This document shows, in pieces, positions 6,124 through 22,571 of a DNA stretch of 42,396 bases; position 1 is the stretch's first letter, and each line of letters opens with the position of its first letter. Source of the DNA: Fidelibacterota bacterium. Lineage in GTDB: Bacteria > Fidelibacterota > UBA8477 > JABMPR01. The stretch covers positions 1 through 42,396 of the forward strand of contig JABIFX010000157.1 in NCBI GenBank assembly GCA_018650445.1, written 5' to 3'. Below the pieces are notes generated by a model that was not told the origin of the DNA, did no database searches, and worked only from the letters and a program-made list of their open reading frames with translations. The position numbers were made by a program, and so were the translations under genes.

Positions 6124-7023
6124 TTATTGAGGTTTAAATGACCAAACTACAGGTCGATGATCCGATACGACTGAACTGTAATCACCAAACACTTCATCTA
6201 GTCGAATCGTTGATATGCTGGAATGTTGCTCTTCATCAAAGAGTGACCGACTGATTAAAATGTGGTCAATAAAGCTAGGATAGCTCGGGTAAGAAGCGTC
6301 CCAAGCCGCCCCGGTTGCTGCAAGGCTATCTGTGGCAAAACGGAAGTTATCACCATCATTTAAGAATGCCTCAAAACTGTACTGTCCAGAATCATCGCCA
6401 TCGTAGATAGCATCGTTCCAGTCACCTGGAACCACAAAATTGCTGTCTCCCCAGGCCATTTTATTCCTTAAGTAATCATTCAGCAGGATGGAAGCCTGAT
6501 GACGGCGTTCTGCGCCATCATTACAGCACTTCATGTGCACATCGATGAGATTGAGTATTTGCTCACGACCCTCATATTCATAGAGGAAACTCACTAAAAG
6601 AGGTGGACGACCAGCAAAATTGTAATCATTACTGGCGAATAGATTCTCTGTGAATACTGGCAAAAAAGAGTCCTGCTTATAGACGATTGCCAGATGCATA
6701 AAGGAGGTCTCATCAGAAATGATCACAGAGTACTGATCAAGCTGATCAACGATATCCTCCAAAGCACCCTTATCTTGAATCTCCTGTAAACAGTAAAAAT
6801 CTGCATCCAGAGAATCCATAATCATCTCAACTCTATCTGTGGTGCGAGTCCCCCGTTGTGGAAAATTTTCAATATTCCAGGTGACAATACTGATGGTGGC
6901 ATCACTATCAATTGAAGGAATCTGAGGACCTGTTGGTAAATTTGAATCAACAGGTTCAGCGCAGGTACTCAGAAAAGCTAGAATTGGGACAATGATTAAT
7001 GGGTTAAATTTATTTAAGTTCAT
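6124..7023 (-). CDS. lipoprotein endonuclease/exonuclease/phosphatase-family hydrolase
   Basis: I start this gene at 7023 because that ATG begins a clean lipoprotein signal (hydrophobic stretch, lipobox LSTC, lipidated C21); a longer upstream reading adds 27 basic residues and runs into the repeat region. The mature 279 residues are an EEP (DNase I-like) domain with its motifs intact: TWNIE (N50, E52), LQEI (E81), DVHMK (H163), GDWND (D201, N203), FIDHIL (D253, H254) and SDHRP (D288, H289). It is expected to cut nucleic acid, or less likely another phosphodiester, at the cell surface. It is a clear paralogue of the C-terminal half of the next gene: both share NFAGRPPL and a CC-x-x-G-x-ERR segment. 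The substrate is inferred. Confidence 0.88.
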   Translation of the reverse strand: MNLNKFNPLIIVPILAFLSTCAEPVDSNLPTGPQIPSIDSDATISIVTWNIENFPQRGTRTTDRVEMIMDSLDADFYCLQEIQDKGALEDIVDQLDQYSVIISDETSFMHLAIVYKQDSFLPVFTENLFASNDYNFAGRPPLLVSFLYEYEGREQILNLIDVHMKCCNDGAERRHQASILLNDYLRNKMAWGDSNFVVPGDWNDAIYDGDDSGQYSFEAFLNDGDNFRFATDSLAATGAAWDASYPSYPSFIDHILISRSLFDEEQHSSISTIRLDEVFGDYSSVVSDHRPVVWSFKPQ

Positions 7024-7051
7024 CTCTATAAATATTTTTCTATTTTTTTTT

Positions 7052-7235
7052 GATACTGGACGTTGAACCAGCCTGTGGGTTGTGCTCCGCGAACGTAGAC
7101 TCATCGAAATGTCCGCCTCAGCTAGAAGCCCCAGGCTTCGATAAACTCAGCCTCCAGACAATACCGGACATTGAGCCTGTCGAAATGTCCACCCCCAGCT
7201 AGAAACTTCAGGCTTCGGTGAACTCAGTTTCCAGG
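7052..7235. repeat. imperfect tandem repeat between the two EEP genes
   Basis: Two diverged copies about 76 bp apart share TCGAAATGTCC (7104-7114 and 7180-7190), then CAGCTAGAA, CAGGCTTCG, AACTCAG and TCCAG. The first copy contains a perfect hairpin, GAAGCC-CCA-GGCTTC, at 7125-7139; the second contains GGACATT (7167-7173) pairing with AATGTCC (7184-7190). On the minus strand the units read like the short GAGTTTATCGAAGCCT-type elements dispersed in some FCB genomes. The block fills the 212-nt gap between two paralogous nuclease genes; it may also act as an mRNA structure. Confidence 0.7.
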
Positions 7236-9197
7236 TTATTTGGACATGTTGAGCTGCATGAGCACGGGGCGATGATCAGAAATAATCAGTTCATACTCTT
7301 CCCAACTACCTAGCCACTCAGCTACAGGCAACGTCTGTATGGTGCTGCCATTTTCAAATTCATCAAAAAAGCCCTTCCCGATCAGAATATGATCTAGGAA
7401 GCTTGGCCAACTTGGATAAGACGCTTGTTCAATATCCCCGGCAATGCGATCAGTGGTAAATCTGAAGTTTTCTGGATCACCCAGGAAGGCTGTAAAACTC
7501 TGTAAAACTCCCACATCATCAATCTGGTCATTCCAGTCTCCCAGGACGATGATATTTTCCTCACCTATCTCCATACCCAGACTCAAATATTCATGCAGCT
7601 CTGCTACTGATTTTTTGCGACGTTCCAGACCATTCCCACAACACTTCAAGTGCAGATTAATGATCGAAACCGGTTCTCTTTTCCCGTCTACTGTCCAGAC
7701 AAAATCTACGCGGAGCGGTGGACGACCGGCAAAATTGTAATCTGAGTGGGCAAAGGGCTCTTCCCTGCCAACATAGGCCAGTACACTTTTCTTGTATATC
7801 ACAGCCTGATCAAAAAAACTTGATTGCCTGGTAACCTTAAAATCATAGGCAGGTAAAAGATCCATCATGGCTGCAAATTGCTCCAGACTTCCAATCTCCT
7901 GTACCGCATAGACATCAGCATTAATTTTTTGCATAATCTCGGCAACAGCAGTGATAGTACTGTCCTTGGATTTGGGAAACCACTCCATATTCCAGGTAGC
8001 TACATCGAGATAATTATCCCGATTAAAATTGGGTACTTCAAATTGCCATCTCTTCAGTATTGATGATTCGCCTGACGCAGGGCTGTTCTGAGCCTTGCTA
8101 AAATCTCGTTTCCCTACAAAGCTGCGTGTCTTTTCCAGGTCAGTGAGATGTTTTGTCATGGTCTGGTCTGGATGAATATCATCCGTACTCAGAGTGAATA
8201 ACACACCTCTTGCAAATGGGTTCTTATAACCGGCCAGTGTGCCTGTCTTGCGATGTACATAAAGTACGATATGTCCAATATTACTGGCACCACCATAACC
8301 CTGCACAATCAGTGTATGTTTCTGTGGATCCTCCCAGGGTGTGTTATAGCCTGCATTGGTACCACCAGAAACAATGAGATCGATCCCATCTACCAGGTGA
8401 CCCAATTCAAGGTTTGTAATAACTCTGTCACTAAAATCACTCTCATCTTCATAAGTATCAACAAATTCAGCAAATTCATCTTCACGTTGATAGGGTACAC
8501 CCAGGTGCGATAGACCTATGATGCAATTAGCACCTTGATCTTTGAGCACCTTGATTTGCTCTCTAGCCGCAACAATTTCTCGTCCGAATTCTACACCAGC
8601 TGTTTGCCCTGGTAAGAGCTTTCTGGGTGTATTGGCAGTAGATAATCCAAATATCCCCAGCTTAACGCCCTGAAATGTTTTAACGAGATTTGCCTGCGGT
8701 GAATAGAGGTCACTCTTCAAATTCGCACCAAGAAAAGGGAATTGGGCTCTTTCGTTCAGGTTAGAAATATTTTCCATCCCAAACATGAATTCCTGCAAGC
8801 CTATAACAGATGCATCATATTCCATCTCATTCATCCAGTCAACCATGGCACGACCTGAATCAGCCATACCCAGGGGTGTTCCCTGGAATATGTTACCACC
8901 ATCCAGCAATAGAACTTCTGATCCTTCCGTTTTCGCCAGGTCTCGAATCTCGTTCACATAGGTGAACATGGAAGCACCACCACCAAGATCAGGTGGAAAT
9001 TCAGGATTCATAAACCAAGCTTTTGAAGGGGAAATCCCTCCATGTAGATCATTGGTGAAAAGCAGATGAATTTTGAGGTACTCTGGAGAATCGAATTTTT
9101 TATTGTACGTTGATGTCTGGGCATCCACATAATCTGGCTGCACAAGCACCAGCATTAATGCGACAAAAAAGAAACCCAGTATGGGAAGTCGTTTCAC
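7236..9197 (-). CDS. secreted metallophosphatase-like/EEP nuclease fusion protein
   Basis: A Sec-exported protein of 653 residues (signal peptide 1-27, cut after VDAQ). Residues 43-345 resemble the calcineurin-like half of UshA/5'-nucleotidases, with no usual 5'-nucleotidase C-terminal domain. Residues 397-650 are instead an EEP nuclease domain with N403, E405, E434, H516, D554, N556, D557, D602, H603, D641 and H642 all in place. The metallophosphatase half has lost ligands: the second motif reads DGGN (N102 for D), GNHE is GLQE (134-135), and GGHSH is GGTNA (T280 and A282 for His); only D50, H52 and H231 remain. That half is probably a binding or scaffold domain. The GTG start overlaps the stop of the upstream barrel gene (GTGA), which shows co-translation. 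Confidence 0.88.
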   Translation of the reverse strand: MKRLPILGFFFVALMLVLVQPDYVDAQTSTYNKKFDSPEYLKIHLLFTNDLHGGISPSKAWFMNPEFPPDLGGGASMFTYVNEIRDLAKTEGSEVLLLDGGNIFQGTPLGMADSGRAMVDWMNEMEYDASVIGLQEFMFGMENISNLNERAQFPFLGANLKSDLYSPQANLVKTFQGVKLGIFGLSTANTPRKLLPGQTAGVEFGREIVAAREQIKVLKDQGANCIIGLSHLGVPYQREDEFAEFVDTYEDESDFSDRVITNLELGHLVDGIDLIVSGGTNAGYNTPWEDPQKHTLIVQGYGGASNIGHIVLYVHRKTGTLAGYKNPFARGVLFTLSTDDIHPDQTMTKHLTDLEKTRSFVGKRDFSKAQNSPASGESSILKRWQFEVPNFNRDNYLDVATWNMEWFPKSKDSTITAVAEIMQKINADVYAVQEIGSLEQFAAMMDLLPAYDFKVTRQSSFFDQAVIYKKSVLAYVGREEPFAHSDYNFAGRPPLRVDFVWTVDGKREPVSIINLHLKCCGNGLERRKKSVAELHEYLSLGMEIGEENIIVLGDWNDQIDDVGVLQSFTAFLGDPENFRFTTDRIAGDIEQASYPSWPSFLDHILIGKGFFDEFENGSTIQTLPVAEWLGSWEEYELIISDHRPVLMQLNMSK

Positions 9198-10573
9198 AGA
9201 CTATAACTCATGGAGATTGAATAGTTAGTTTTTGATTCCCGAACATTTTCATAGACATTGGCTGACATTTCACCAGGGACAAAAATATCATAATACCGAT
9301 ACCCTACTGACGAAAGTTGTAGTGCCACATCAAATTGCAAGGGTCCACTTTTCCAGCCTGAGCCACCGCTGAGAACTGCCTGAGAGAGTTCACTGTCAAT
9401 GGGCGATTCTGCCCAGCTAAAACCAGCTCGAAAGGGTACATTTTCGTTCACCCAATGTTCGATACCCCCACTTATCGTAAATGCTTCCTGCATGGGGTAT
9501 GCAAATGGGGAATCAGCCTCCAAAAGCGAGTCGCTATAGCTCACTTCATATTGGGTCCAGTCCTGATAGGCTAGCGACACATAAACTGATGTGGGCAAGC
9601 TGTTGGATGGTTTCATCCTCAAACCAAGCTCAAGGCGGGCGGGAATATTGACTGTTGACCCCAGAGAATCCGAAGACCACTCCAAACTCGGTAAGTCCAG
9701 TGCGAGATCATAAAAGGGGTTTGCACCCTGGCGTATGGACTCAATTGAATAAGCAGACTGATAGCTCGCGCTAATTCTCCAGTGCAAACCAAAATCCTTG
9801 ATCACTCCCATATTAAATATGAATGGTGAATTATCCAGTTCCCAGCTCTCGGTTTTCAATAGGTTTGAACCAGCCGCAAGGGCAGAAACATTTGCACTAT
9901 CCAAAACTGATATGCCATACTCGTTTTCCAGACCAACACCGTGGAGCATGCGCATTCCAAGACCAACTGACCAGGACCCAAAAGCCGTCCCAAGACTGGC
10001 GCCACTGGATTGTATCACACCTGCTTGACTCAGATGATGATATCCAATGAGAGGATCTCGGTTGATGTTTGGTGAGTAAAGGCTACCTCTGATCTCCTCT
10101 TTAAATGAGAAAGCCGGGGTAAGCAAGGGTGTTGAGGCCAGAGAGATTGACAATTGACCGCTGCCCCATGTTGCCCCGCCCGAAAAGGTGTTTTGTATGC
10201 CCTTGGAAACCACATAGATGTTATTGGTAACCACATCTCCAAATTGATCAATGGCAGGAAAGGATCGATTTTCATTTGTAGTTATGGCACCAAAGGAACC
10301 ACTCAACTTAAGACCAACAAATCCTGCCTGATTGGCCGGGTTACTGAAAGTACTCATGGCCGAGCTATAATCGGAGGTATTCGCTCCTGATAAAGCCACA
10401 TCTCGACTGTGGGACAACCCCAATTGATTCATCAATAACGGATTAAAATAGCTCTGAGCAAAAAGCGTGCAGCTTGATAATAACAGCATAATTATGCTGA
10501 AAGTTCGTGTAAGTCTCATAGTGTCCATGGAGGTCTTCTTATCATTCATTTTGTGTATATTTGTCATATTCAT
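9194..10573 (-). CDS. predicted outer-membrane protein, PorV/FadL-like
   Basis: A beta-strand-rich protein of about 459 residues with a Sec signal (core MRLTRTFSIIMLLLSSCTLFAQ). After the signal comes RDVALSGANTSDYSSAMSTF followed by SNPAN, the N-terminal pattern of PorV/PorQ and FadL-like barrels, in which an Asn-Pro-Ala segment follows an early strand. Alternating hydrophobic strands continue to the end (SISMSYSL). The start is uncertain: GTG at 10576 abuts the upstream TAG, ATG at 10573 is chosen here, and a later ATG just before the signal core would also work. It lies between the helix-hairpin-helix barrel gene and the metallophosphatase-nuclease gene, overlapping the latter by 4 nt. It may anchor or export its operon partners; the exact role is not shown. 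Confidence 0.75.
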   Translation of the reverse strand: MNMTNIHKMNDKKTSMDTMRLTRTFSIIMLLLSSCTLFAQSYFNPLLMNQLGLSHSRDVALSGANTSDYSSAMSTFSNPANQAGFVGLKLSGSFGAITTNENRSFPAIDQFGDVVTNNIYVVSKGIQNTFSGGATWGSGQLSISLASTPLLTPAFSFKEEIRGSLYSPNINRDPLIGYHHLSQAGVIQSSGASLGTAFGSWSVGLGMRMLHGVGLENEYGISVLDSANVSALAAGSNLLKTESWELDNSPFIFNMGVIKDFGLHWRISASYQSAYSIESIRQGANPFYDLALDLPSLEWSSDSLGSTVNIPARLELGLRMKPSNSLPTSVYVSLAYQDWTQYEVSYSDSLLEADSPFAYPMQEAFTISGGIEHWVNENVPFRAGFSWAESPIDSELSQAVLSGGSGWKSGPLQFDVALQLSSVGYRYYDIFVPGEMSANVYENVRESKTNYSISMSYSL

Positions 10574-10576
10574 CAC

Positions 10577-13099
10577 CTAGAAGGCATAGTCCAATTGAAT
10601 TCGGAAATCTGTAGCCTCAGTAAAATAGTTTACCCCTGTCTGAGGCGATCTTGAGGAGGAGGAGGGTGTACCATAGGCATAATTGGAAATAGCGGAACCT
10701 TCGTCCCATGTGAGTTTGGCTCTTACAGCCCAGTGATTTCCAAGACGGGAGAAGGTGGTCAGGTACCAGCGAATTGATCCATTGGGGGAATCAAATACCT
10801 GGAAGTCAGTATCCTCAAAGCTCCAGAAGAAGCCCTTATAGTAGGCGATATGCCCAATGAGCTTAAAACTTTCTGTAAAATTATGAGTCACGGTGAAGCC
10901 CAGGGCATTTCCAGGGCTATAGGCTTGTCCAACGGCAGAGTTATTATTTGCTCCCGTGGCTAAATCGATGGTTAATCGTCGACGTGGATCAAATTGAGTC
11001 CCTGAATTAGCATAAGTCACCTGCAGCTGATCAAAACCTGAAAGTCTCATTCTGGCTGTAAAAATGGTTTCCCGGTTTTCATAACCGGTTGGTGCAAAGA
11101 TATTGAATCTTCCACGGGCCTGCCATTTTTGTCGTACCCTGAACCGATAGTTAAAAGTAGGTCGATATTCAAGTGTTGCCACTGTCCGGAAATACCTCGA
11201 TCCATCAGCTACCCGGGTCCAGGTATCAAAATTTGTCGTCAACAACCAGGCCCGATGCATCTGATAGCGACTGCTGACATAAATCCCCTGCTCGGCTTGA
11301 GGTTGCGAAGCACCAGCATAGAGGTATGAAAAGGCAGGATTTTTCAAATAATAATAGTCTTCAAAAATACTGCTTTTATAGCGCTGATAATTTGAAAAAC
11401 TACGCTGATAGGGATTGTCAAAGCCAAGGTCATAATCACGATAAAGCACCATGAAATTGAAATTGTCAAATTGGAGATAGGCATTAGCCACTAACGCTCT
11501 AGGATCATCTTTAATCGATAGTATCTCGCTATCCTTGTCCAGGACAGCCCATTCAAGCTGTAGTGCCAGATTGCTGATAACCGTACTGAACTCTAGCCCC
11601 TGTACACGCCGATTAGATTTAGCCACATCCCAGAGTGAGGAAGCTGCTGATGAGGCATGCATGGCAGCCACTTCCGTATCGGCACCATTCCCAGAGGAAT
11701 TCAGAAATAATCCTGTGTTACCAGGAAGTATCAGAGTGAGGAGGGGATCTGGTCTCAACTCCTTATCATAGAGACTTTCATAGCTGGAAAATCCCACAAA
11801 GGTTCCCGGGGTAATTTCATAACGAAGGTTTCCACCATAGGTCACTTCCTCAACCGCATTCAGCATATCCAGAGTATCTTGGACAAAATAATCATAGTCA
11901 TCTCTTGGATACATAGTGATCAAGGAGGTAAACGATTCACCATCGGAATTGAGTATTGCATCTCTATCGTTTTTTGATGCAAATACCATGAACTTAAACT
12001 TGTCAAATAGGGAACCCTGTATACCAGCACCCCTCAGCGCATACTGTTGGGTTCTAGATAGATCGGAAAAGATACCGGTGACACGTTTGTTCCATCCATA
12101 GCCCGAATAGCGAGGTGATCGAAAATCAGTGGACTGCATCACCAGCCCCTGAGCAATGGTCGCAGAAAAGTTACCTAAAACCATACGATCCAAGTGCAGA
12201 GGTCCCAAATTATAATCGGAAACAGTAAACGAGAGTTTCACTTCAGGAATATCACCATCGTTAAAATAGCGATGAGATTCACCAAGCTGCCGATTGTAGG
12301 ATATGCCTGCTTTCCAGTGACGGGAATTAGTAAAAGACAGTTTATGAAGAACATCTGGTCTTGAAGCCGGATTGTTAAGGAGCTCCGATTTCTTCAATTC
12401 TTCCAGATTCTCAATCTGTAGGATTGTGGCTACAGCCTCTTCTTCAGAATTGGTAGAAGGGATGGATTTCACAACCATATTATACCAGACATGCATCTGT
12501 CCATCCTCAGGTTCGCTGTAAGTCACGAATTCCCGCAAATTACGGTAACCATAGTATGACAGACCGATGGCATTTCTGAGCCATCTTGCAGATCCAATGG
12601 AGTCAACTTCTGCACGTAGTTTAAGGACTGCCACGGCATCGATCTGACTGACATTCTGGAAGGATACCAGGTCATCATAGGTGGCTGTGTTCACATTGAT
12701 GGGTTCTGCCAGACGTTCCAGCCAGAGTTCCATCAAACCTTCACTGGCACCTTCAGTGGAAGTCCAATCCTCTACTTTCCTATATTGATCTTGAAGACGC
12801 GTATTGGTTGAAGCATTTTCGTCTGGTTTTAGCACGAGTTGCGGTTTTAAAGCTTCTATATCGACGTGCTCCAGTTCGGAAACGTTTACCAATTCATAGA
12901 TGCTCTCAAGTGGACCATGGTATTGCACATACTCATAGACCGCAAGCATTTGGCCTTCGGTAAGAGGCAGGTCTTGTAGCTCTGAGAGCGAGGCATTATT
13001 AATATCCACAGGATTTGCCCATGCCAGACCCAGCATCAATAAACTGATGATGGTGATGTGCCCTACCCTCTTGAATATCACTGATGTTTGTCTAATCAT
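10577..13099 (-). CDS. helix-hairpin-helix (ComEA-like) protein with predicted outer-membrane barrel
   Basis: An 840-residue exported protein. After a signal sequence (about 1-29) come two ComEA-like helix-hairpin-helix units, at about 31-90 (VDINNASLSELQDLPL) and 133-195 (INVNTATYDDLVSFQNV). Such units bind DNA backbone without sequence specificity. The remaining 600 or so residues are rich in aromatic, alternating strands and end in FRIQLDYAF; a terminal Phe is typical of outer-membrane barrels. The overall shape is therefore a periplasmic DNA-binding head on a barrel, or a barrel-linked DNA receptor. It lies 9 nt after the PorV-like gene and directly abuts the next barrel gene. Proteins of this layout occur in Bacteroidota without, to my knowledge, an assigned function. 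DNA binding is inferred from the fold. Confidence 0.78.
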   Translation of the reverse strand: MIRQTSVIFKRVGHITIISLLMLGLAWANPVDINNASLSELQDLPLTEGQMLAVYEYVQYHGPLESIYELVNVSELEHVDIEALKPQLVLKPDENASTNTRLQDQYRKVEDWTSTEGASEGLMELWLERLAEPINVNTATYDDLVSFQNVSQIDAVAVLKLRAEVDSIGSARWLRNAIGLSYYGYRNLREFVTYSEPEDGQMHVWYNMVVKSIPSTNSEEEAVATILQIENLEELKKSELLNNPASRPDVLHKLSFTNSRHWKAGISYNRQLGESHRYFNDGDIPEVKLSFTVSDYNLGPLHLDRMVLGNFSATIAQGLVMQSTDFRSPRYSGYGWNKRVTGIFSDLSRTQQYALRGAGIQGSLFDKFKFMVFASKNDRDAILNSDGESFTSLITMYPRDDYDYFVQDTLDMLNAVEEVTYGGNLRYEITPGTFVGFSSYESLYDKELRPDPLLTLILPGNTGLFLNSSGNGADTEVAAMHASSAASSLWDVAKSNRRVQGLEFSTVISNLALQLEWAVLDKDSEILSIKDDPRALVANAYLQFDNFNFMVLYRDYDLGFDNPYQRSFSNYQRYKSSIFEDYYYLKNPAFSYLYAGASQPQAEQGIYVSSRYQMHRAWLLTTNFDTWTRVADGSRYFRTVATLEYRPTFNYRFRVRQKWQARGRFNIFAPTGYENRETIFTARMRLSGFDQLQVTYANSGTQFDPRRRLTIDLATGANNNSAVGQAYSPGNALGFTVTHNFTESFKLIGHIAYYKGFFWSFEDTDFQVFDSPNGSIRWYLTTFSRLGNHWAVRAKLTWDEGSAISNYAYGTPSSSSRSPQTGVNYFTEATDFRIQLDYAF

Positions 13100-13108
13100 T
13101 GCATGGCT

Positions 13109-14020
13109 CTAGAAAGGATCTACGAAGTCATAGGCCAGCGATAGTTGATGCGTCGCAGGCAGGACCGGATGGGTTAGGAGCGCATAATCCAAAGCGATTC
13201 CTTTAGCTTTAAAACTGAAGCCCGTCCCAAAGCGGTTGGGTTGTGATTGAATACCGGCACGTAATGTAAAAAAGGTATTCAAGCCATACTCCAAACCGGC
13301 ATGCAATTCAGTGTCAAAACCTGGGCTACTCACCAGCATAAAGCTGGTTACAACCTGCTGGGTTGGTGCGTAGGAAAAACCAGCTTGAATATCACGATGC
13401 AGGTTAAATGCTGCACTTCCTGAACCGATCATAGGACGATTGATATTGTGTGCAACCACACCAAGCCAGTGTCTTTTTGATAGGGTCGCTTGAAAGCCCA
13501 GATCAACTGCAAAGGCCGTGGCACTTCCTAGATCCATACCATCAGAACCATCACCAGTTACACCAGCAGATTGGCCATAATCAATGGAAAGATACTTGAG
13601 TGTATAACCCATATTCAAACTTGATATCCGGTCTTCACGAAGATTAAATGCATGAGACACTCCCAGAGCAGTTTCACCACTCAGTGTTTGATCCTGGTAA
13701 GAAACTGACATGGATTCAAAGCTTAATCCAAGTTTCCCCAGACCACTGGGTAGGTCCAGGACTGTCGCCAGGATACTATGGGGTAAATAGGACTGATTGT
13801 AGATGCGTTGGGTACTGGCCAGAACCGTTCCATTCTCAATATTTCGAATGGATGCTGGATTGAGCAGCAGACTGCTTCCATCACTAGAATAGGCGATATT
13901 ACTCCCCATGAGGGCACCCATGGCAGCTGATTTGTATGGTGTATCCGTGGTTACCTGCCCATATGAAAGACCAACCAATACACTAAATATTATGAGTCGA
14001 AGCATATTTAAATTCTTCAT
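13109..14020 (-). CDS. PorV/PorQ-family outer-membrane protein
   Basis: A 303-residue protein with a signal peptide (about 1-21, ending SYGQ) and the PorV/PorQ hallmarks: AAMGALMGSNIAYSSDGSS, then LLLNPASI (N54-P55) and strand-rich sequence to a terminal Phe. PorV-type proteins are outer-membrane barrels that help type IX secretion or attach its cargo. That fits, because the gene directly upstream encodes a protein with a sorting-type C-terminus, and the two genes overlap by one base (TAATG). It could be a dedicated shuttle for the lamin-tail proteins of this locus. The family call is good; the specific partner is inference. Confidence 0.8.
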   Translation of the reverse strand: MKNLNMLRLIIFSVLVGLSYGQVTTDTPYKSAAMGALMGSNIAYSSDGSSLLLNPASIRNIENGTVLASTQRIYNQSYLPHSILATVLDLPSGLGKLGLSFESMSVSYQDQTLSGETALGVSHAFNLREDRISSLNMGYTLKYLSIDYGQSAGVTGDGSDGMDLGSATAFAVDLGFQATLSKRHWLGVVAHNINRPMIGSGSAAFNLHRDIQAGFSYAPTQQVVTSFMLVSSPGFDTELHAGLEYGLNTFFTLRAGIQSQPNRFGTGFSFKAKGIALDYALLTHPVLPATHQLSLAYDFVDPF

Positions 14021-16002
14021 TATCTACTCCCGATGACTACAGGAGCCATATCTGTCAAAATCTCACCAGTGGAGCGGTTTACTGTTTCCAGATGCATGAT
14101 ATAAGTTCCTGGCGTCACAAGCTGATAGATTTCATTGCGACCGTTCCAGGTCTTGGTCACTTCAAGAGACAGGCTGCGGTAATCCTCGAAAAGTGTGGTG
14201 ATGATGTGCCCGGACATATCGAAAATCCTGAGGGTTACCCGTGAATTTGCGGGAAATTTGTAAGTATATTGAATTTTTTCAGCCAGTTGTGGTACAAAGG
14301 GATAGGGCGCAACTGAGAGGCTGGTTCCACCATCACTGTCCTCCCCTTCTTTATAGGGCTGTACATCGCTGGCATAGGCTGCCAGGAGTTGTCCGTCATC
14401 GTTGTATAGACTGGCAATACCAAATACCTGAACCAGATTCCCTACTTGGAGCAAACTATCGGCAGTTAAATCATCCAGTAAATGTGTGGTATCCCAAATT
14501 CTTATGGAGACGAGACCATCGGCATCTTCCAGGCCAACATTTGATCCCCCTCCGATTCCATCGCTTCTGGATTGGACGGCACCCCAGACCCTGACGAAGC
14601 TACCCTGATTTGCATCTGCAGTCATCTCGGCACTGGTAATGGTCCTAATACCCGGCACAGGTCTGCCTGTGGCAAGCTGGGTGCTTGAAAAATTGATGAT
14701 TTGTTTGGTGCCATTGTATTCAGAAACTTCACCAACCAGATTTATGGAATCACCCTGGACCAGGGCTGGGTTCAACATACCTGTAGCTGATAGAACAATA
14801 CCGTAGCCAGATTCATCCTGGACATAGGCTTCCGTTCTATCGGTACGGGTGATGCCAGAACCAATTGCTACGACAACATTCAAATTCACTATGGTGCCCG
14901 AATAGCTGTCGAAATTTCCACGGATGGTTTGGATCGTCACTGGTGGGGGTGGATCTGTAATTGCAATCCCTCCAATGGGGCTCGTCTCCGATAGACCTGA
15001 AGTATTCAATGCAGTTATGTAATAAGCGAGAGTACCCTCTGCATTGGTGGCAGGAATCGTGACGCTGTAACTGTCACCACCTGAAGATGCCATGACCAGG
15101 TCAACAGGTGTGCCTGTTTCTGTTGGGAAGGTGTAGGTCAGTGTAACTGAACTTATGCCAGCATCATCGGTGGCATCGGCAGTAATAATTATATCTTCTG
15201 TAGTCTCGGGATCTGAGGGTGTGGCAATGATATTATTGATCTCAGGTTTGACAATGGTCAGATCAACCACAGACCAGGTATCAGCCAGATTTTCACTGGT
15301 TTCATCATGACCGGTAATCCCATTGCCACCTGAAGAAACTTCTGTTCCCTCTTCCCCATTGCGAATCAGTTTAAAACCATCCACATGGGTCTCCATGAAA
15401 CTCTGATTTTCCACTGGTGTATCAGCGGCATAACCAGCGACAGGACTTTTATCCAATGTGTACGTTGAAGCTGTGGTGCTGTCTGTACCCCACACGAGAT
15501 ATTCAACGTCTTCTACAGTGGATGAGACACCATCCCAATGAAAAAGAATAAGAGATTCTGACGTGTTGTCCAATTTGACATTAGGTGAGCCACCGATTGT
15601 AGATGTGCCATCGACTGCATCCAGCATATTGTCCTTCAGTGAAAGATCTGGGCTGGCTCCATAGGTCGTTTCATAGTCACTATTTCGGGCCATACTCAAG
15701 ATCAGAGAACCACCAGCTGAAATAGTTGTATCAGGGAATCGGACAATAAAATCAGTCGAGCTACCTGACCAATAGTCAATACCACTGGGCAGATTATAGT
15801 AATATTTTCCATTGGCCTTATCGGTACCATCTGTCAGGTAGTAATCACTGAGATTGATAGACCCGGCTGTAGGATTGCTGATCAATATGTATTCACCTGC
15901 TGAGGGTTGGAGTACAACCTCATTGATCAGGAGATGATCAACCGCCATGGCCAGATAGGGCATGAGCAGAAAAAATACGCTTTGAATTATTTGTCTCTTC
16001 AT
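14020..16002 (-). CDS. secreted lamin-tail/OB-fold protein with type IX-style C-terminus
   Basis: A 660-residue secreted protein and first gene of the tight five-gene operon. Signal peptide 1-20 (ending LAMA); lamin-tail domain from about 23 (LLINEVVLQPSAGEYILISN) to about 180; an Ig-like domain about 253-350; two OB-fold domains of the kind found in YhcR/ExeM-type nucleases, about 355-450 and 455-550; and a FlgD-Ig/sorting-type C-terminal domain about 565-660. No catalytic nuclease domain is present. In known secreted DNases (ExeM, Xds) lamin-tail and OB folds accompany an EEP domain in one chain; here the EEP domain is four genes downstream. Likely role: surface nucleic-acid or polymer binding. 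It shares its architecture with the 18711-16099 gene. Confidence 0.82.
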   Translation of the reverse strand: MKRQIIQSVFFLLMPYLAMAVDHLLINEVVLQPSAGEYILISNPTAGSINLSDYYLTDGTDKANGKYYYNLPSGIDYWSGSSTDFIVRFPDTTISAGGSLILSMARNSDYETTYGASPDLSLKDNMLDAVDGTSTIGGSPNVKLDNTSESLILFHWDGVSSTVEDVEYLVWGTDSTTASTYTLDKSPVAGYAADTPVENQSFMETHVDGFKLIRNGEEGTEVSSGGNGITGHDETSENLADTWSVVDLTIVKPEINNIIATPSDPETTEDIIITADATDDAGISSVTLTYTFPTETGTPVDLVMASSGGDSYSVTIPATNAEGTLAYYITALNTSGLSETSPIGGIAITDPPPPVTIQTIRGNFDSYSGTIVNLNVVVAIGSGITRTDRTEAYVQDESGYGIVLSATGMLNPALVQGDSINLVGEVSEYNGTKQIINFSSTQLATGRPVPGIRTITSAEMTADANQGSFVRVWGAVQSRSDGIGGGSNVGLEDADGLVSIRIWDTTHLLDDLTADSLLQVGNLVQVFGIASLYNDDGQLLAAYASDVQPYKEGEDSDGGTSLSVAPYPFVPQLAEKIQYTYKFPANSRVTLRIFDMSGHIITTLFEDYRSLSLEVTKTWNGRNEIYQLVTPGTYIMHLETVNRSTGEILTDMAPVVIGSR

Positions 16003-16055
16003 TCTCTCACTTCTGTTTCATCGTATACAAAATCATTAAACAACACTATTGATGC

Positions 16056-16082
16056 AAAAGGCGTCCCTATAGAACGCCTTTT
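16056..16082 (-). terminator. hairpin terminator after the large lamin-tail gene
   Basis: A perfect 9-bp stem, AAAAGGCGT (16056-16064) with ACGCCTTTT (16074-16082), and a 9-nt loop. On the minus strand it begins 17 nt past the stop of the 18711-16099 gene. The T run is only four bases, so termination may be partial, leaving some read-through into the five-gene operon that starts at 16002. Confidence 0.6.
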
Positions 16083-16098
16083 GCCAATTTCATTAAAT

Positions 16099-18711
16099 TT
16101 ATTTTAGTAGCATGACCTTTTGAATGGCTGATTCGTTTGGTGTAATCAACTGAATGAAATATACACCTGAACTTAAGTCAGAGGCATCCCAGGTCATGGA
16201 GAATTGCCCGGGACCAGTGCTGCCCTCAACCAATCGAGCTACTTCACGACCTCGCACATCCATGACACGTAACATCATATCTGAAGAGGATTCAAGCTTC
16301 CAACTCAGGGTTGTGCTGGGATTGAAGGGGTTCGGATAAGCAGGATTCAGAGCAAATTGTGAAGGTTTTGTATCTATCACATCAATGGCACTGGTGCTTA
16401 TGATATCTGCATCATAAGCCACAAGAAGCTGGAAGGTATTGTTATACTGACTTTCAACACCGAGGAACGACCATTCTGTGCCAACGGTCAGTGGTGTAAC
16501 ATCCACACCAGTTGTTTCCCAGATACGGACAACGCATGTGTCTGATCCATCACCAATCAGAACGTTTTGACCACCACCGGCTGACCAAGTATCTGTAATA
16601 GTACCAGTGATTTTGAGCCAGGTTCCTTCGTATTCAGCATTATTGGCTTCTCCAGGGGTTAGCACAACTGGAGCTGGCAGATCATTGCCTGTGGAAATAA
16701 GTTGGTATGAAAAATCCGTAATCTCAACGGTGGTTTGAAAAATTTCAATTGCACCAACAACTGTGATCATATCCCCGCGGTTGATATCCAGCTCATCAAA
16801 TTGAAATAGATTGATACCCCGGCCTGAGGCATCCTGCAGATAGGCTTTTGTGTAGGGGGGCTGTAGCAAATCACCACCAATAGTGACAATGCCTTCAACG
16901 GTTACGATCTGATCTTGGATAGGGTTGGCCTGAATTGAGGCAATGGTGGCGACTTCGGAGGAGGCAATAGCCAGCTCGTAAGTCCAGGAGTCAAACTCGC
17001 TGGTATCAATACCTGAATCATAGGTGGTGAATGCTGTTGCAATTATTTCATATTCAAGGAAAGAATTTGCTGCCTGGGCAGGTATGATCCCCATGTAGGT
17101 ACTGCCATTATCCAGCCACATTTCACTTTCATTTAAATGTGTTCCACCCGTTCCATACATCAGTACGGCTGAGTTAATGCTCTGTGTCTCATCACCTGGT
17201 ACAATATCAATAGTTACTGTGATTTCATTGGCTGAAGTTGCAAATTCAGGTGTGTGTATTTCATTGGTAAATGTCGGTCTCACAATATTCGACAGAAAGT
17301 CAGATACGAGGCGAGGTTGTATCTGATTTGTACCCTGAAATTGAGTGACAACGCCGATAACATCCACAGGCCACACCGGCTCCACTGTTCCATCGATCTG
17401 GGTATCTTTGTCAATCCTCATAACTGCCGAACCAGTACCGCCATCGATAATGTTCATATTTGCATTATTTCCAGACGTTGGCCATGGATCACCACCATCA
17501 GTTGAGAGGTTCAAAATTTTGATCAGCTCGCTTTCATAATCTTCACCGTCTGTCATGAGTTGAGCTACTGTAATAACTTGTGGTTCTGGCAAAGTATTCC
17601 CAGTGCTGTTTATCACAATCTGATCAATAGAAGTTGGGACAATGTCAATGACATCATAAGGAGCTGAGATTTCTCCCGTCACAGTAATTTCGTCACCTAA
17701 TTCAAGAACAAGTAATTCACCTGCACGGTATATATGAAGAGCTGCCGTTTCGTCCTGGAAAGTATAATCGACGCCATTGCCCTCATAATAATTCACACTC
17801 GTTACTAGCCCTGTAGTTGTGACTAGCGTTCCCAAGGCTTGAGTTCTTGCCTCAGCGATAGTCAAGATGGTACTAATTTGGACAATAACTTCTGTTTCCG
17901 CGCTGGCTGTGGCACCTTCATCATCGGTGACAGTGAGTGAAAATACCCAGGTACTGGTTTCAGTGACAGTGGGTACAGTAAAACTGGCGATAGCGCTCGT
18001 AGCATTGGTTAAAGTCACACTTGAGCCTGAAACTTGTTCCCAGAGATAGGAAGCAATTGTTCCATCAAAATCACTACTACCACTCCCATCCAGAGAAACG
18101 ATTGCACCACTTTCAACGTACTGATTGGCACCTGCATTGGCTACTGGCGGAAAATTCACGTTGGGGTCAAAAGTCTGATTGGTATTTGCAGCTCCAGGAG
18201 TGATACCAGTATGTTCCCATGGAGTTCCATCAATTCCGATGCGACTGATTGAGGAATCAGGCGAGGGGAAATCGGTTCCACCGTCTTCCATGACATTTCC
18301 ATCAGTATCAGTCATTTCCCCTTCGTATGAGACGGCATCAACAATGTTGTTATTAATTAATAGAACAACGCCGTCTGGATCTCCATTTTGAATGGCGTGG
18401 GAAGCTGGCCACCCAGCTGGGGTAATATCAGCTTCCGAAACCGTCGCCGCTCCAACCACATAAAAACCATAACCATTCGATTCGTCTGCGATTGTGATGC
18501 TACCTAGGTCAACTGTCCTATAGGATGTATTGTTGTTCCCATTAATGAAATCAATCACAACACTACTATATGTCCCAGCTGGACCTGCTATTTCAATGAA
18601 TTCATATGGATCCTGATCCGGCTGATCATAATCGATTTCATTAATAAAGAGTTGGCCAAAGGCCATTGATGTCATCAGAGCCAGGCTGATAAACGTGTTT
18701 AAAGCTTTCAT
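16099..18711 (-). CDS. large secreted lamin-tail/PKD/OB-fold protein with type IX sorting domain
   Basis: I take the ATG at 18711 as start: AAGGA lies 8 nt upstream and a signal peptide follows at once (cut after AFGQ, residue 20). A longer upstream reading adds 39 unlikely residues. The 870 residues comprise a lamin-tail domain (about 21-180), a PKD-like domain (about 187-278), OB-fold domains at about 283-380, 381-475, 587-675 and 685-770, with an Ig-like domain at 480-580. A classic C-terminal sorting domain follows at 787-870 (NPAYPNPFNPSTTLSW, ending KVMLLK). It should be exported by type IX secretion and kept at or near the surface. No enzyme motif is visible; four OB folds suggest polymer, perhaps nucleic-acid, binding. 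It heads the locus, separated from the next gene by a hairpin. Confidence 0.85.
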   Translation of the reverse strand: MKALNTFISLALMTSMAFGQLFINEIDYDQPDQDPYEFIEIAGPAGTYSSVVIDFINGNNNTSYRTVDLGSITIADESNGYGFYVVGAATVSEADITPAGWPASHAIQNGDPDGVVLLINNNIVDAVSYEGEMTDTDGNVMEDGGTDFPSPDSSISRIGIDGTPWEHTGITPGAANTNQTFDPNVNFPPVANAGANQYVESGAIVSLDGSGSSDFDGTIASYLWEQVSGSSVTLTNATSAIASFTVPTVTETSTWVFSLTVTDDEGATASAETEVIVQISTILTIAEARTQALGTLVTTTGLVTSVNYYEGNGVDYTFQDETAALHIYRAGELLVLELGDEITVTGEISAPYDVIDIVPTSIDQIVINSTGNTLPEPQVITVAQLMTDGEDYESELIKILNLSTDGGDPWPTSGNNANMNIIDGGTGSAVMRIDKDTQIDGTVEPVWPVDVIGVVTQFQGTNQIQPRLVSDFLSNIVRPTFTNEIHTPEFATSANEITVTIDIVPGDETQSINSAVLMYGTGGTHLNESEMWLDNGSTYMGIIPAQAANSFLEYEIIATAFTTYDSGIDTSEFDSWTYELAIASSEVATIASIQANPIQDQIVTVEGIVTIGGDLLQPPYTKAYLQDASGRGINLFQFDELDINRGDMITVVGAIEIFQTTVEITDFSYQLISTGNDLPAPVVLTPGEANNAEYEGTWLKITGTITDTWSAGGGQNVLIGDGSDTCVVRIWETTGVDVTPLTVGTEWSFLGVESQYNNTFQLLVAYDADIISTSAIDVIDTKPSQFALNPAYPNPFNPSTTLSWKLESSSDMMLRVMDVRGREVARLVEGSTGPGQFSMTWDASDLSSGVYFIQLITPNESAIQKVMLLK

Positions 18712-18893: not shown

Positions 18894-19745
18894 TTATTTA
18901 TTCTCCAGATTCCAACCAAATTGACAGAAGAGATAGGGCGCGCCAAAACTGATCCAGGCGCCCAGAAGTGTATATCGGATAAACATGGCCATATCTGTTG
19001 TGTAGCCGATAGATATAAACACCTGTTTTAGCCCCATCCAGATCAGAACGATACCTACCAGCCCCAGGACAAGCTTGGAGATGACCAGGTTCATACCGGG
19101 TTTGAAACTACAGGAAAGATATTTCTTCTCGTGGAGGTAACCCGTTAGAAAACCGATGAATGCCGCGCCGCCTTTGATGGCCACCTCAGATAGTTCTGGG
19201 ACCAGCATAAACAACCCCATGAGAAGTACAAAGATGATCAAACTCTGTCGAGTGGGACCGAGATAGAGCCAGCCCTGCGGGGCAAGCTTTAATAACCAGG
19301 AATAGACATACAAAGTTATAAATCCAATCAGGAAACCACCCAGGACATCTGTGGGGTAGTGTACACCAAGATATATTCTTGAGAATCCCACTCCAGCTAT
19401 GAGAATGGCAGCAATAACGTAGGCACGCTTGTCCTTGAGCTCATAGGCCAGCCAGCCCCACAATACCATAGCACCCTGAGAATGACCGCTGGGAAAGGAC
19501 CAATCATCAGCATGTACGAGATGCTCAATGACATCGGGTCTAGGTACCTGAAAGATACCTTTAATGACTGCATTTAGAACAAATGTAAAAAGCAGCACCG
19601 AACCTACGCGACCCATGACCTGCTTTCTCCACAGCCAGTAGGCCAGGGGTAGAAAGAGGAGGAAAAATTCCTCATCACCGAGAAAGGTGAAAATCTTCAT
19701 TATCGGTGTTAGCCATTCAGCACGTACTGATAAAACCCACTCCAT
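18894..19745 (-). CDS. PAP2-family membrane phosphatase
   Basis: A multi-pass membrane protein of 283 residues with all three PAP2 motifs: K62-x6-R69-P70 (KGIFQVPRP), P85-S-G-H88 and S122-R123-x5-H129-x3-D133 (SRIYLGVHYPTD). Such enzymes remove phosphate from lipid phosphates, for example phosphatidic acid, phosphatidylglycerophosphate or undecaprenyl pyrophosphate. The hydrophobic C-terminal half adds further spans. AGGAGG lies 7 nt before the ATG. It follows the 626-residue gene with a 119-nt gap and is probably transcribed on its own or weakly with that gene. The substrate cannot be told from sequence. Confidence 0.92.
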   Translation of the reverse strand: MEWVLSVRAEWLTPIMKIFTFLGDEEFFLLFLPLAYWLWRKQVMGRVGSVLLFTFVLNAVIKGIFQVPRPDVIEHLVHADDWSFPSGHSQGAMVLWGWLAYELKDKRAYVIAAILIAGVGFSRIYLGVHYPTDVLGGFLIGFITLYVYSWLLKLAPQGWLYLGPTRQSLIIFVLLMGLFMLVPELSEVAIKGGAAFIGFLTGYLHEKKYLSCSFKPGMNLVISKLVLGLVGIVLIWMGLKQVFISIGYTTDMAMFIRYTLLGAWISFGAPYLFCQFGWNLENK

Positions 19746-19864: not shown

Positions 19865-21745
19865 CTACAGATTCCACACAAGGCGCGCCTGATAACGCCA
19901 GGCCCAGGGCTCTTCGTCCTCAGGAGGGTGAGACTGCCAAATTGGAAAATAAAGACCCGCTGTGAAAAAAGATTTGTGCTCAAAACCAAATCCAGCCGCA
20001 TAGTGAGGTTTAACTCCGTCCCAACCCACTTCATCCATATCAACGATCATACTGCTTGTGAATACTTTTAACTGAATACCGGACATCCAATAACCACCCG
20101 ATAAACTCAAGCCCATGTACTCATTGGTATTTTCAGTCAGCTTGGTTTGACCACGAAAAGTTGGTATAGCTGCCAATCCATCCTGCCAGTCATATTTATG
20201 GGTGAATTGATAGGGGTCTGGCGTCGACTGACTCTGGAATCCCGTTTCAAATTGGATGCCTCCCACAACCCAACCCCAAAACACACCTGAAAGGTCTGTC
20301 TGTGCTTTAAATATAGAAAAATTACCCTGGGGACCCTGACCAGAGGCGGCCTTGACTCTGATATAAATCCGGTCTCCCTGTTTGGTCAGAGATAGGCCAG
20401 AATAAGACCCTTTGATAATGTGAATATTTTGATTTTGCTTCCAGATCAGGCTGTCACCATATTGATCATATTCAAAAGCCAACCCTACTCTTTGATATAT
20501 CAGCCGTGGCCCCTGAATCAGGTAAGTTTGCTTACCTACATAACGGGTAAACCCAATACTGATACCTGACCAATCATCATACGTATGAGCATTGAGATGC
20601 GAAAATAGGCGTTTATCCAGATTTAGTGGGTGACCATAACTTACTCGTCCACCCCAACTCATGCTGGAATCATAGGGCTTGTGACCATTTAGTTCTAAAC
20701 TGATGCGGTGACGAAAATCACTGGGATAAGCTGGCCATAAGTCCACACCAAAGCCGGAAGTCAATTTTACTCCAATCCGTTTTTCTCCATCCCAATCAGA
20801 CCAGATACTGGGATTAATTGTCATGCGATAGTTGGTCCAATCCGGCAAAGCTCCAAAGGGTTGAAGGTGAAAATTATTGCGTAAACGGGGCCAGCGGTTG
20901 TTGTACCTATAATACTCAGCCAGGAGATGATCCGCATCCAGAACGACTTCCGCCACATCAATCTTTGGTATCATCAGCGGTGCGGTTTGGTTCAAACCAT
21001 ACGTGTAGTAGGTGCTGTCCCCATCCGTGGATATCACCATTACTTGTACGGGGAAATGCCATACCCCAATATGCTCGATGCCAATCTCAATTGAATCCTG
21101 TCTGGTTCTGACATAATCCAGATTGACATCACTCCAGCGTGAACTGATAAGGGCATTTTCGAACTGAAGCGCAAGATCATCACAGCAATGGGTTGACATA
21201 CTTTTTATAAGCTCATCTGTTATGGAGGAAGGATCAGTAGATAATTGCATGGCGTCATTAACCACCATGGCAAATAGTGAATCTCCAATAGTGCCCTGAA
21301 GCATACGCAAGTAACCAAAACCGGCCACCACAATGATGAAACGTTCCTCTGTCCGTAATTTTGTAAAGATTAAATCTTTCCTGATGGACATTAAATTTCC
21401 ATTGGAAAGCGCTCCCCCGGCCAACTCAACCAAATAGCGCGGAGTAAGATACTTGAAATCACTCCACAGTTCTGGGATAGCGGCTTCCAGACCCTCGTAT
21501 GGAACATTTTCACCCTTCCCATTATTGCTTAGAAGCAGCATGGCATATGAACCAAAAAACCATGAGCCCTGGTCCAGGGAGTCCCCTTTCCAATTACTTA
21601 GCGTACGACCCATTTCATCGATTTCATTGAGGTAAACATCCAGAGGGTGTGTAGGCGTCTCTTTGGAATCAGATGGAACTGATTGCGCCACCAGTGAAAC
21701 TGCCAGGGAGATAAATAGAAGCGTGAATGGGATTTTGAAACGCAT
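19865..21745 (-). CDS. exported protein, M1-peptidase-like without catalytic motif, barrel-like C-terminus
   Basis: A 626-residue exported protein (signal peptide about 1-21, ending LVAQ). Residues about 110-300 resemble the region after the catalytic domain of M1-family aminopeptidases: a helical stretch with LRMLQGTIGDSLFAMVV, then a beta domain ending VVLDADHLLAEYYRYNN. No HExxH zinc motif occurs anywhere, so it is not an active M1 enzyme as written. Residues about 310-626 are strand-rich and aromatic, ending YQARLVWNL, which suggests a barrel or surface beta domain. The gene lies 22 nt after the M55 aminopeptidase gene, which hints at a shared peptide-related role. The M1 resemblance is judged by eye, so family membership is tentative. 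Confidence 0.55.
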   Translation of the reverse strand: MRFKIPFTLLFISLAVSLVAQSVPSDSKETPTHPLDVYLNEIDEMGRTLSNWKGDSLDQGSWFFGSYAMLLLSNNGKGENVPYEGLEAAIPELWSDFKYLTPRYLVELAGGALSNGNLMSIRKDLIFTKLRTEERFIIVVAGFGYLRMLQGTIGDSLFAMVVNDAMQLSTDPSSITDELIKSMSTHCCDDLALQFENALISSRWSDVNLDYVRTRQDSIEIGIEHIGVWHFPVQVMVISTDGDSTYYTYGLNQTAPLMIPKIDVAEVVLDADHLLAEYYRYNNRWPRLRNNFHLQPFGALPDWTNYRMTINPSIWSDWDGEKRIGVKLTSGFGVDLWPAYPSDFRHRISLELNGHKPYDSSMSWGGRVSYGHPLNLDKRLFSHLNAHTYDDWSGISIGFTRYVGKQTYLIQGPRLIYQRVGLAFEYDQYGDSLIWKQNQNIHIIKGSYSGLSLTKQGDRIYIRVKAASGQGPQGNFSIFKAQTDLSGVFWGWVVGGIQFETGFQSQSTPDPYQFTHKYDWQDGLAAIPTFRGQTKLTENTNEYMGLSLSGGYWMSGIQLKVFTSSMIVDMDEVGWDGVKPHYAAGFGFEHKSFFTAGLYFPIWQSHPPEDEEPWAWRYQARLVWNL

Positions 21746-21767: not shown

Positions 21768-22571
21768 CTAATAAGCAAAGAGATTAAATCTCATAAGTTC
21801 AAAATAATCTTCAGATTTAAAACCTACTGTAACCGGGTTAATGAGAGAAGCCCCTGGGTAAAATGATGCACGATAAGCTTCCTGATGTTTTTTGAATTCA
21901 ATTGAAAATTCAAGTTTTTTCGGGATGGGCAGTAAACCTTTGGAAAAATCTCCTCGAATGGCTTTTGCCACCCCTGCTTGGATCATTTTCAACGATTGAG
22001 CGGGATGTTGTGAAATAACTGAGCTACCCTCACCTCTGATAGTGGCCACTGTCTGAATTATGGAATTATGCTCGGCAACCTCCTGACAAAGTCCTGCATC
22101 TCCTGAGACAAAAATTGAGGGAACACCATAGTAAGAAGCCGCCAGACCGTGCAAGTAGAATTCTGACATATCCAGACCATTCAGAGTCATTCTGGCAATT
22201 CGAGATGAAGACATGGTATGGGCCAGCGTGTTCGTATTCTGTCCGGCTCGGGAATGATAACCAATAAACATAATTGCATCAAAACTTTCATCAACCTCTT
22301 GAACCATGGACAAGGGATGTCCTGCCCAGCCACGCACAACTTCACAAAGTTCAGGTAATTCATTCAGAATGAGATTTCTTCCCGAATCGTGGGCATCTTT
22401 AATTAAAATTTCTGTGGCTCCACCTTCGATGGCAGCTTCAGCCGCTGCTGCAACTTCTGCGGTCATTTGTTTTTGAAACCAGGAATACTCATTGGGGAAG
22501 GCTTTGTCAGTTTCATTCCAGTGTCCAATGCCTGTAATACCTTCAATATCTGCAGAAATAAAAATTTTCAT
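21768..22571 (-). CDS. M55-family D-aminopeptidase (DppA-like)
   Basis: A 267-residue enzyme without a signal peptide, matching Bacillus DppA, a zinc D-aminopeptidase that releases N-terminal D-amino acids from peptides. The metal-binding and catalytic pattern is in place: D8 and E10 in SADIEGITG, H61 in KDAHDSG, H106 in GYHSRAG and E137 in DMSEF. The fold marker GVPSIFVSGD is also present. Its ATG has AGGAG 7 nt upstream. A role in recycling D-Ala-containing peptidoglycan peptides or scavenged peptides is likely. It leads a pair with the 626-residue exported protein. Confidence 0.9.
   Translation of the reverse strand: MKIFISADIEGITGIGHWNETDKAFPNEYSWFQKQMTAEVAAAAEAAIEGGATEILIKDAHDSGRNLILNELPELCEVVRGWAGHPLSMVQEVDESFDAIMFIGYHSRAGQNTNTLAHTMSSSRIARMTLNGLDMSEFYLHGLAASYYGVPSIFVSGDAGLCQEVAEHNSIIQTVATIRGEGSSVISQHPAQSLKMIQAGVAKAIRGDFSKGLLPIPKKLEFSIEFKKHQEAYRASFYPGASLINPVTVGFKSEDYFELMRFNLFAY

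Follow-up and report, generated by a model that had tools for sequence, protein, structure and literature searches.

A four-gene outer-membrane core followed by an exchangeable phosphoesterase in Fidelibacterota and Calditrichota: a tentative link to nucleic-acid or nucleotide scavenging

Gene content of the locus

We analyzed a stretch of 42,396 nt from a Fidelibacterota bacterium (contig JABIFX010000157.1 of assembly GCA_018650445.1, called the window below), whose genome comprises 3.9 Mb in 273 contigs, and focused on a locus of seven genes at 6124-18711. At its center, four genes encode a surface protein with a lamin-tail domain (LTD) and OB folds, a PorV-like barrel, a barrel preceded by helix-hairpin-helix (HhH) units, and a FadL-like barrel. 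This four-gene outer-membrane core is found in two phyla, and the position after it, here called the slot, is refilled by unrelated phosphoesterases, which makes it a defined gene set to test.

A preliminary description of this DNA had proposed seven consecutive minus-strand genes with the middle five tightly packed, and both points were confirmed. All seven open reading frames (ORFs) were verified, all on the minus strand, and the gaps in transcription order were 96 nt, a 1-nt overlap, 9 nt, 0 nt, a 4-nt overlap, and 131 nt. Its domain assignments also stood, with three amendments: the metal motifs of the metallophosphatase are mostly lost, the HhH hairpins are degenerate, and the start of the EEP lipoprotein was moved to about 7023. 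The features, in transcription order, are:

16099..18711, minus strand: secreted LTD-PKD-DUF5689/OB-type protein with a type A C-terminal sorting domain of the type IX secretion system (Pfam PKD, Por_Secre_tail, and DUF5689 over cut-off; LTD below cut-off)
14020..16002, minus strand: core gene 1, surface LTD-Ig-like-OB-OB protein with a FlgD/PorU-like C-terminal domain (LTD and OB matches; OB below cut-off)
13109..14020, minus strand: core gene 2, PorV-like outer-membrane barrel (NF033709, 49.5 bits, E 4e-13; below the family cut-off of 90)
10577..13099, minus strand: core gene 3, two HhH units, then an outer-membrane barrel (HHH_3 PF12836, 42.1 bits, cut-off 27; 840 aa)
12815..13015, minus strand: HhH unit 1 of core gene 3 (aa 29-95), acidic, hairpin shortened
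10580..12514, minus strand: barrel part of core gene 3 (aa 196-840), strongly conserved, hydrophilic face net basic (from invariant alignment columns and face composition)
9194..10576, minus strand: core gene 4, FadL/PorV-like outer-membrane barrel (Toluene_X/FadL, PF03349 over cut-off)
7236..9197, minus strand: phosphoesterase slot, one chain with a degenerate UshA-type metallophosphatase half (aa 30-355) and a C-terminal EEP domain of nuclease type (aa 396-653)
6124..7023, minus strand: EEP lipoprotein (PF03372 over cut-off; ORF to 7104, start probably 7023)

For the first protein, the ATG at 18711 is the most likely start and is followed by a signal peptide (by eye). For the EEP lipoprotein, a start near 7023 appears more likely than one at 7104: a short signal and a Cys follow 7023 ('LSTCAEPV', by eye), and a Cys also follows the signal in related EEP-lipoprotein rows. 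The UshA-type half of the slot protein had NCBIfam matches below their cut-offs and no Pfam match. No Rfam family reached its threshold anywhere in the window, and promoter and terminator patterns in the locus were at chance level (24 vs. 26.2 expected; 11 vs. 11.6 expected).

Conservation of the four-gene core

We searched for the HhH-barrel by protein in 60 genomes, the source genome of the window among them. It matched in 36, one of which (G044) had only a 67-residue ComEA-type match, leaving 35 genomes with the barrel, some of them partial at contig ends. The LTD-OB, PorV-like, HhH-barrel, FadL-like, and metallophosphatase genes followed one order in 34 neighbourhoods, wherever the contig reached. 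In the 25 barrel-less Fidelibacterota genomes, a profile search gave short ComEA-type HhH matches and, in five of them, a sister barrel (see below), but nothing that belongs to the window's family.

A contig scan with two conserved peptides gave 123 barrel relatives, and we worked with the 80 best (L073-L152); the conservation of those two stretches is therefore partly due to selection. Eighteen of the 80 are Calditrichota-side, by title or tree place, and 62 Fidelibacterota-side. A few of the latter are titled otherwise, such as L081 and L085 ('Flavobacteriales'), with L081 inside the clade and L085 outside the tree sample. The window barrel groups with those of Ca. Neomarinimicrobiota (Fidelibacterota), at up to 94% identity.

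Wherever the contig left room, the LTD-OB gene adjoined the PorV-like gene (53/53 Fidelibacterota-side and 17/17 Calditrichota-side loci) and the PorV-like gene adjoined the HhH-barrel (58/58 and 17/17). The FadL-like gene lay downstream of the HhH-barrel in 61/61 Fidelibacterota-side loci and, as a separate gene, in 15 of 16 Calditrichota-side loci; in the sixteenth (L136) both barrels share one ORF. That ORF (L136:9878-13552) spans 1224 aa, with the FadL profile matching at aa 847-1220 (E 1e-56), and is either a natural fusion or an assembly effect. A metallophosphatase gene was found within 3 kb in 52/56 and 8/13 loci with room, respectively.

The gene set is thus conserved in order across two phyla, in agreement with the preliminary description, which had expected conservation beyond close relatives. 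The second phylum keeps the order at ~35-40% identity, and, in clustering of the flanking ORFs, every other family was confined to at most 18 of the 80 loci (flank lengths vary between loci), so the arrangement reflects more than chance. Because the order is the same in both phyla, the four genes probably form one machine. Strong barrel matches, some partial, were present in 34 of 40 genomes of the phylum of a Caldithrix-titled genome, and a one-contig Fidelibacterota genome (G036; 2,788,509 bases) holds the operon with a motif-intact 5'-nucleotidase. A tblastn search of a plasmid collection gave no match and hence no plasmid-borne copies. In the open-access texts searched on lamin tail, PorV, HhH, nucleases, or DNA uptake in these phyla or Bacteroidota, we found no description of this operon.

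The phosphoesterase slot

Three enzyme types occupy the slot after the FadL-like gene: an intact 5'-nucleotidase, a dead metallophosphatase with an intact EEP domain (as in the window), or an e(P4)-like phosphatase. We aligned the motifs of 59 slot proteins (58 from the loci plus the window). None of the 38 EEP-fused proteins, window included, retained all five metal motifs, compared to 16 of 21 unfused ones. In the window, NDxH is retained, and DxGD, GNHD, and GHxH have become DGGN, GLQE, and GGTN. A Fisher test of motif loss against EEP fusion is not independent evidence, since the tree shows a single fusion clade. Three unfused slot proteins were compared to Pfam: two were full 5'-nucleotidases (Metallophos plus 5_nucleotid_C) and the degenerate one (L141) had 5_nucleotid_C alone. 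This C-terminal domain (PF02872), found in L117, L148, and L141, was absent from the window protein.

An e(P4)-like HAD phosphatase gene directly follows the FadL-like gene in six loci (among them L077:14003-14662, L088:6806-7474, and L118:9031-9699), and in L077 it replaces the metallophosphatase-EEP gene. Five of the six are motif-complete; the ORF of L075 is shorter and lacks the DxDET stretch. Counting all types, a motif-intact enzyme filled the slot in 43/43 Fidelibacterota-side loci with at least 4.5 kb downstream. The 5'-nucleotidase, EEP, and e(P4)-like HAD enzymes have unrelated folds, and in each case the named relatives use nucleotides or nucleic acids as substrates. As a separate observation, a sodium:solute symporter gene (PF00474) at L073:11677-13773 is inserted between the FadL-like and metallophosphatase-EEP genes.

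The Calditrichota-side slot differs: among 14 loci, three had a motif-intact enzyme, five a degenerate one only, and six none, meaning no match to the metallophosphatase or EEP profiles. The four-gene core stays in the loci without a motif-intact enzyme. The preliminary description had made the nuclease part of the set; judged by these profiles, it lies outside the invariant core.

On a maximum-likelihood tree of 57 barrels (midpoint root), four slot-type changes are needed, including one EEP fusion clade (99/96, with the e(P4)-like L077 inside), one degenerate clade, and one empty clade. Intact 5'-nucleotidases occur in both phyla on this tree, and this distribution suggests that an active nucleotidase was probably ancestral in the slot.

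EEP domains

We followed eight positions, which we take to be the catalytic set from DNase I/ExoIII, and they were retained in 68/68 aligned EEP rows save two unresolved X; the window rows were complete. When the EEP profile was compared to solved structures, a ranking by sequence only, DNase gamma came first (7.9e-8), followed by a putative EEP protein, two more EEP-domain entries, Tdp2-type enzymes (1.2e-4), unrelated dockerin and protease rows, DNase I (0.008), and nocturnin; SMPD3 reached 0.23. By this ranking, the EEP domain is nearest to DNase gamma/Tdp2 and not to sphingomyelinase, a grouping that the preliminary description had named as fatal to its proposal. An assignment as sphingomyelinase or inositol phosphatase was rejected, as neither the structure ranking nor the Pfam and NCBIfam matches supported it. 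Genes combining EEP and LTD lie just downstream in L073 and L087, and an EEP gene with a type IX tail lies just upstream in L109.

These results bear on the proposal that the locus scavenges another phosphorylated compound, such as NAD, nucleotide-sugars, or phospholipids; in the last case, FadL would take up the fatty acid. NadN with e(P4) forms the NAD pair of Haemophilus, the UshA family includes NAD and UDP-sugar hydrolases by family name, and the window holds PAP2 and FadL genes. However, the EEP domain is nearest to DNases with sphingomyelinase far behind, and among the 34 neighbourhoods those with an adjoining PAP2 gene are confined to the family of the window and the family next to it in the same order. 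We regard this explanation as very improbable.

The LTD-OB protein and type IX secretion

The AlphaFold model of the LTD-OB protein resolved the Ig-like, two OB, and C-terminal domains. In structure comparison, its OB folds resembled the OB domains of HIN-200, PolD, and Teb1, a type known from nucleic-acid-binding proteins, which supports the preliminary description on this point. The ExeM/NucH family (NF033681, cut-off 300) was not reached by the window proteins, which scored 21.4 bits and, for the OB region in the 16099-18711 protein, 21.6 bits. The preliminary description had also likened the locus to an ExeM split over several chains. This is in line with PMC6085458, where ExeM carries LTD, OB region, and EEP in the same chain, and EEP nuclease activity depends critically on a stretch of two putative OB folds and less on the LTD.

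The type IX sorting domain of the 16099-18711 protein scored over its cut-off; that of the LTD-OB protein reached 17.1 bits only (cut-off 23). SprA is encoded in the source genome (G000, E 1.8e-34). We discarded SprA presence as a test, because SprA_N is near-universal (58/60 genomes) and thus uninformative. In four of five genomes of one genus (G026 C41, G031 C4, G036 C1, G056 C48), a single contig carries both SprA and the HhH-barrel, ~17 kb apart.

The HhH-barrel and DNA uptake

The AlphaFold model of the HhH-barrel shows helical HhH units and then a barrel of ~24 longer strands. The preliminary description had taken the HhH part as a DNA-binding element, a view that our results do not support. 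The G-[IVLF]-G hairpin was absent from all 54 HhH-barrels at each of four hairpin positions, and HhH unit 1 had a median net charge of -5. In these phyla, canonical ComEA has a median of +3 (17 rows covering 16 loci; dropping a spurious second row of L175 leaves it at +3). In view of hairpin loss and acidity, we rejected the HhH-barrel as a ComEA-type DNA binder; an acidic HhH part without GxG hairpins looks like a protein-protein module.

The hydrophilic face of the barrel had a mean of 26.9 K+R vs. 16.5 D+E and was net positive in 54/54 proteins; since the face was picked by hydrophilicity, only the net sign is informative. Foldseek and VIA matches for the barrel included porins, AlgE, ushers, and TonB receptors, a shared fold that says nothing about cargo.

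DNA import by the locus is possible, and under one explanation the core takes up DNA for natural transformation. Capture would fall to the OB protein, passage to the HhH-barrel with its basic inner face, trimming to the EEP enzyme, and transfer across the inner membrane to ComEC. The basic face fits this proposal. So does Riemerella, where eight genes are essential for transformation (PMC8459023). Besides ComEC, they include those for one DUF5689, one HhH, and one DUF1343 protein and for a predicted outer-membrane protein that has a carboxypeptidase-regulatory domain; in the window, the upstream protein has DUF5689 over cut-off. ComEC was found in 32 of 35 barrel-bearing genomes and 17 of 25 others, and in 7/7 Calditrichota-side genomes. 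With 49 of 60 genomes positive, however, ComEC is too common to discriminate, and we dropped it as a test of transformation. Moreover, a canonical 160-aa ComEA with GxG hairpins (C184) and ComEC lie elsewhere in the source genome, secretins occur in 57/67 genomes, the DNA hairpins of the barrel's own HhH units are lost, and a 5'-nucleotidase in the slot has no obvious role in transformation. Thus, the transformation role raised by the preliminary description found no specific support, and we consider an uptake machine of this kind improbable.

A broader version is a pilus-free nucleic-acid import machine of FCB bacteria, ancestral to Fidelibacterota and Calditrichota. A surface tandem-OB receptor would hand its substrate to the basic-faced barrel, the FadL-like barrel and the PorV anchor would complete the gate, and a nuclease or nucleotidase would act on the inner side, for food, transformation, or both. 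We offer this as a conjecture of low probability.

A sister HhH-barrel family and a platform explanation

In all five core-less Fidelibacterota genomes that carry it, a sister HhH-barrel of 625-633 aa adjoins PorV-like and Amidase_3 (cell-wall amidase) genes. The loci are:

L180:7652-11935: sister HhH-barrel locus
L181:7342-11613: sister HhH-barrel locus
L182:6413-10696: sister HhH-barrel locus
L183:4478-8776: sister HhH-barrel locus
L184:5734-10276: sister HhH-barrel locus

A DivIC gene lies nearby in three of the five (L180, L182, L183), and a glutamate-racemase-type gene adjoins Amidase_3 (by Pfam in L180, by similar sequence starts in the other loci). This set is possibly a cell-envelope system of its own. 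Calditrichota genomes also hold an HhH-barrel of 635-683 aa, with no PorV-like or FadL-like match nearby in 10 loci. Given the sister set beside an amidase, the pairing of PorV-like and HhH-barrel genes recurs more widely as an outer-membrane theme and does not in itself point to nucleic acid.

The four-gene core might then be a general outer-membrane assembly or attachment platform tied to type IX secretion, with the phosphoesterase as one client or accessory and nucleic acid not the core's substrate. The sister loci and the apparent protein-protein character of the HhH part agree with this, as does the persistence of the core without a motif-intact enzyme in 11/14 Calditrichota-side loci. 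PorV-family proteins and PorU/FlgD-like tails likewise point to the type IX system. Against a platform speak the Fidelibacterota-side slots, always filled with a motif-intact nucleotide- or nuclease-type enzyme, and the LTD-OB-OB make-up, which is that of ExeM (PMC6085458). We judge the platform unlikely, though it is the most serious of the alternatives.

A tentative role in nucleic-acid or nucleotide scavenging

The explanation that we prefer, at somewhat less than an even chance, is an outer-membrane complex for extracellular nucleic acid or nucleotides, which it would hydrolyse or otherwise process and scavenge, either on the outside of the outer membrane or immediately beneath it. It is favored because the Fidelibacterota-side slot is always motif-intact despite three unrelated folds of nucleotide or nucleic-acid type, because the operon order is conserved in two phyla, because the EEP domain and the OB folds both rank with proteins acting on nucleic acids, and because EEP and LTD meet in single genes just downstream in two loci. 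The literature adds that ExeM needs its two-OB region for the EEP nuclease (PMC6085458) and that DNases fused to LTD or to duplicate HhH have been described (PMC4486849).

Substrate, complex formation, transport, and its direction, as we infer them, would be as follows. The LTD-Ig-OB-OB protein would be exported via its type IX-type tail, held by the neighbouring PorV-like barrel, and capture the substrate. The HhH-barrel and the FadL-like barrel would complete the assembly, and through them products or short nucleic acid would probably travel inward. The slot phosphoesterase, an EEP nuclease in the window, would cut phosphoesters with help from the EEP lipoprotein; the dead metallophosphatase domain that carries the EEP domain may now serve in docking or folding. 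The cell would benefit by salvaging phosphate and nucleosides.

Several observations weigh against scavenging of nucleic acid. Most domain calls on the window proteins are below family-specific NCBIfam cut-offs, the DNA-contact hairpins of the HhH units are lost, and both the OB and the LTD domains are acidic. Hydrophobic solutes are the cargo of FadL relatives, and the sister HhH-barrel stands beside a cell-wall amidase. As 11 of 14 Calditrichota-side loci keep the core with only a degenerate enzyme in the slot, or with none by our profiles, the core's task cannot be hydrolysis alone. The EEP fusion and the slot loss look like single events each, so the locus counts are not independent. Finally, the source genome has 24 LTD matches, several of them in one ORF, which indicates an LTD-rich surface proteome. 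Of the surface machine for nucleic acid first proposed, conservation, OB type, EEP type, and the likeness to a split ExeM remain, but not DNA binding by HhH, the nuclease as an invariant part, or transformation.

To our knowledge, little is known about how bacteria of the FCB group use extracellular nucleic acid or take it in across the outer membrane. For the marine phosphorus cycles of the deep sea, a key role has been ascribed to extracellular DNA (PMC6085458).

Neighbouring genes

A propeller-type sensor histidine kinase gene (Reg_prop, Y_Y_Y, HisKA_2) at window:2466-6092 is convergent with the locus, ends 31 nt from the EEP lipoprotein gene, and is retained in most same-genus loci; it is a possible regulator of the locus. 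Upstream on the same strand as the locus lie genes for a PAP2 phosphatase (18894-19745), a 626-aa protein without Pfam match (19865-21745), and an M55 D-aminopeptidase (21768-22571). The PAP2 and 626-aa genes are retained in most same-genus loci that reach that far.

Comparison with known systems

As in ExeM, Xds, and NucH, LTD, two putative OB folds, and EEP belong together here (PMC6085458). Unlike in those nucleases, LTD-OB-OB and EEP lie on separate ORFs, the EEP domain carries a dead metallophosphatase, and three barrels share the operon. UshA-type 5'-nucleotidases are matched by the full-length, motif-intact slot proteins of some Calditrichota-side and Fidelibacterota loci, whereas in the window protein just the N-terminal half is left, and it is dead; EEP stands where the 5'-nucleotidase C-terminal domain would be.

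With ComEA and duplicate-HhH DNases such as DNaseTA, the locus shares the HHH_3 fold, and Pfam finds two units in several HhH-barrel orthologues. The HhH part sits here on an outer-membrane barrel, lacks the GxG hairpin, and has an acidic first unit; at 840 aa with its barrel, the protein is unlike ComEA, which is small and periplasmic or membrane-anchored. The locus recalls the type IX PorV/PorU partners in its PorV-family barrels and in a C-terminal domain close to the PorU one, but its tail protein is no sortase, and one PorV-like barrel is apparently dedicated to one operon.

The transformation set of Riemerella anatipestifer, likened by domain description only (PMC8459023), also combines a DUF5689 protein, a barrel, and HhH, with DUF5689 in the window's upstream protein. 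Its genes are grouped differently, and in our locus HhH is fused to the barrel. The parallel is suggestive, at the level of analogy.

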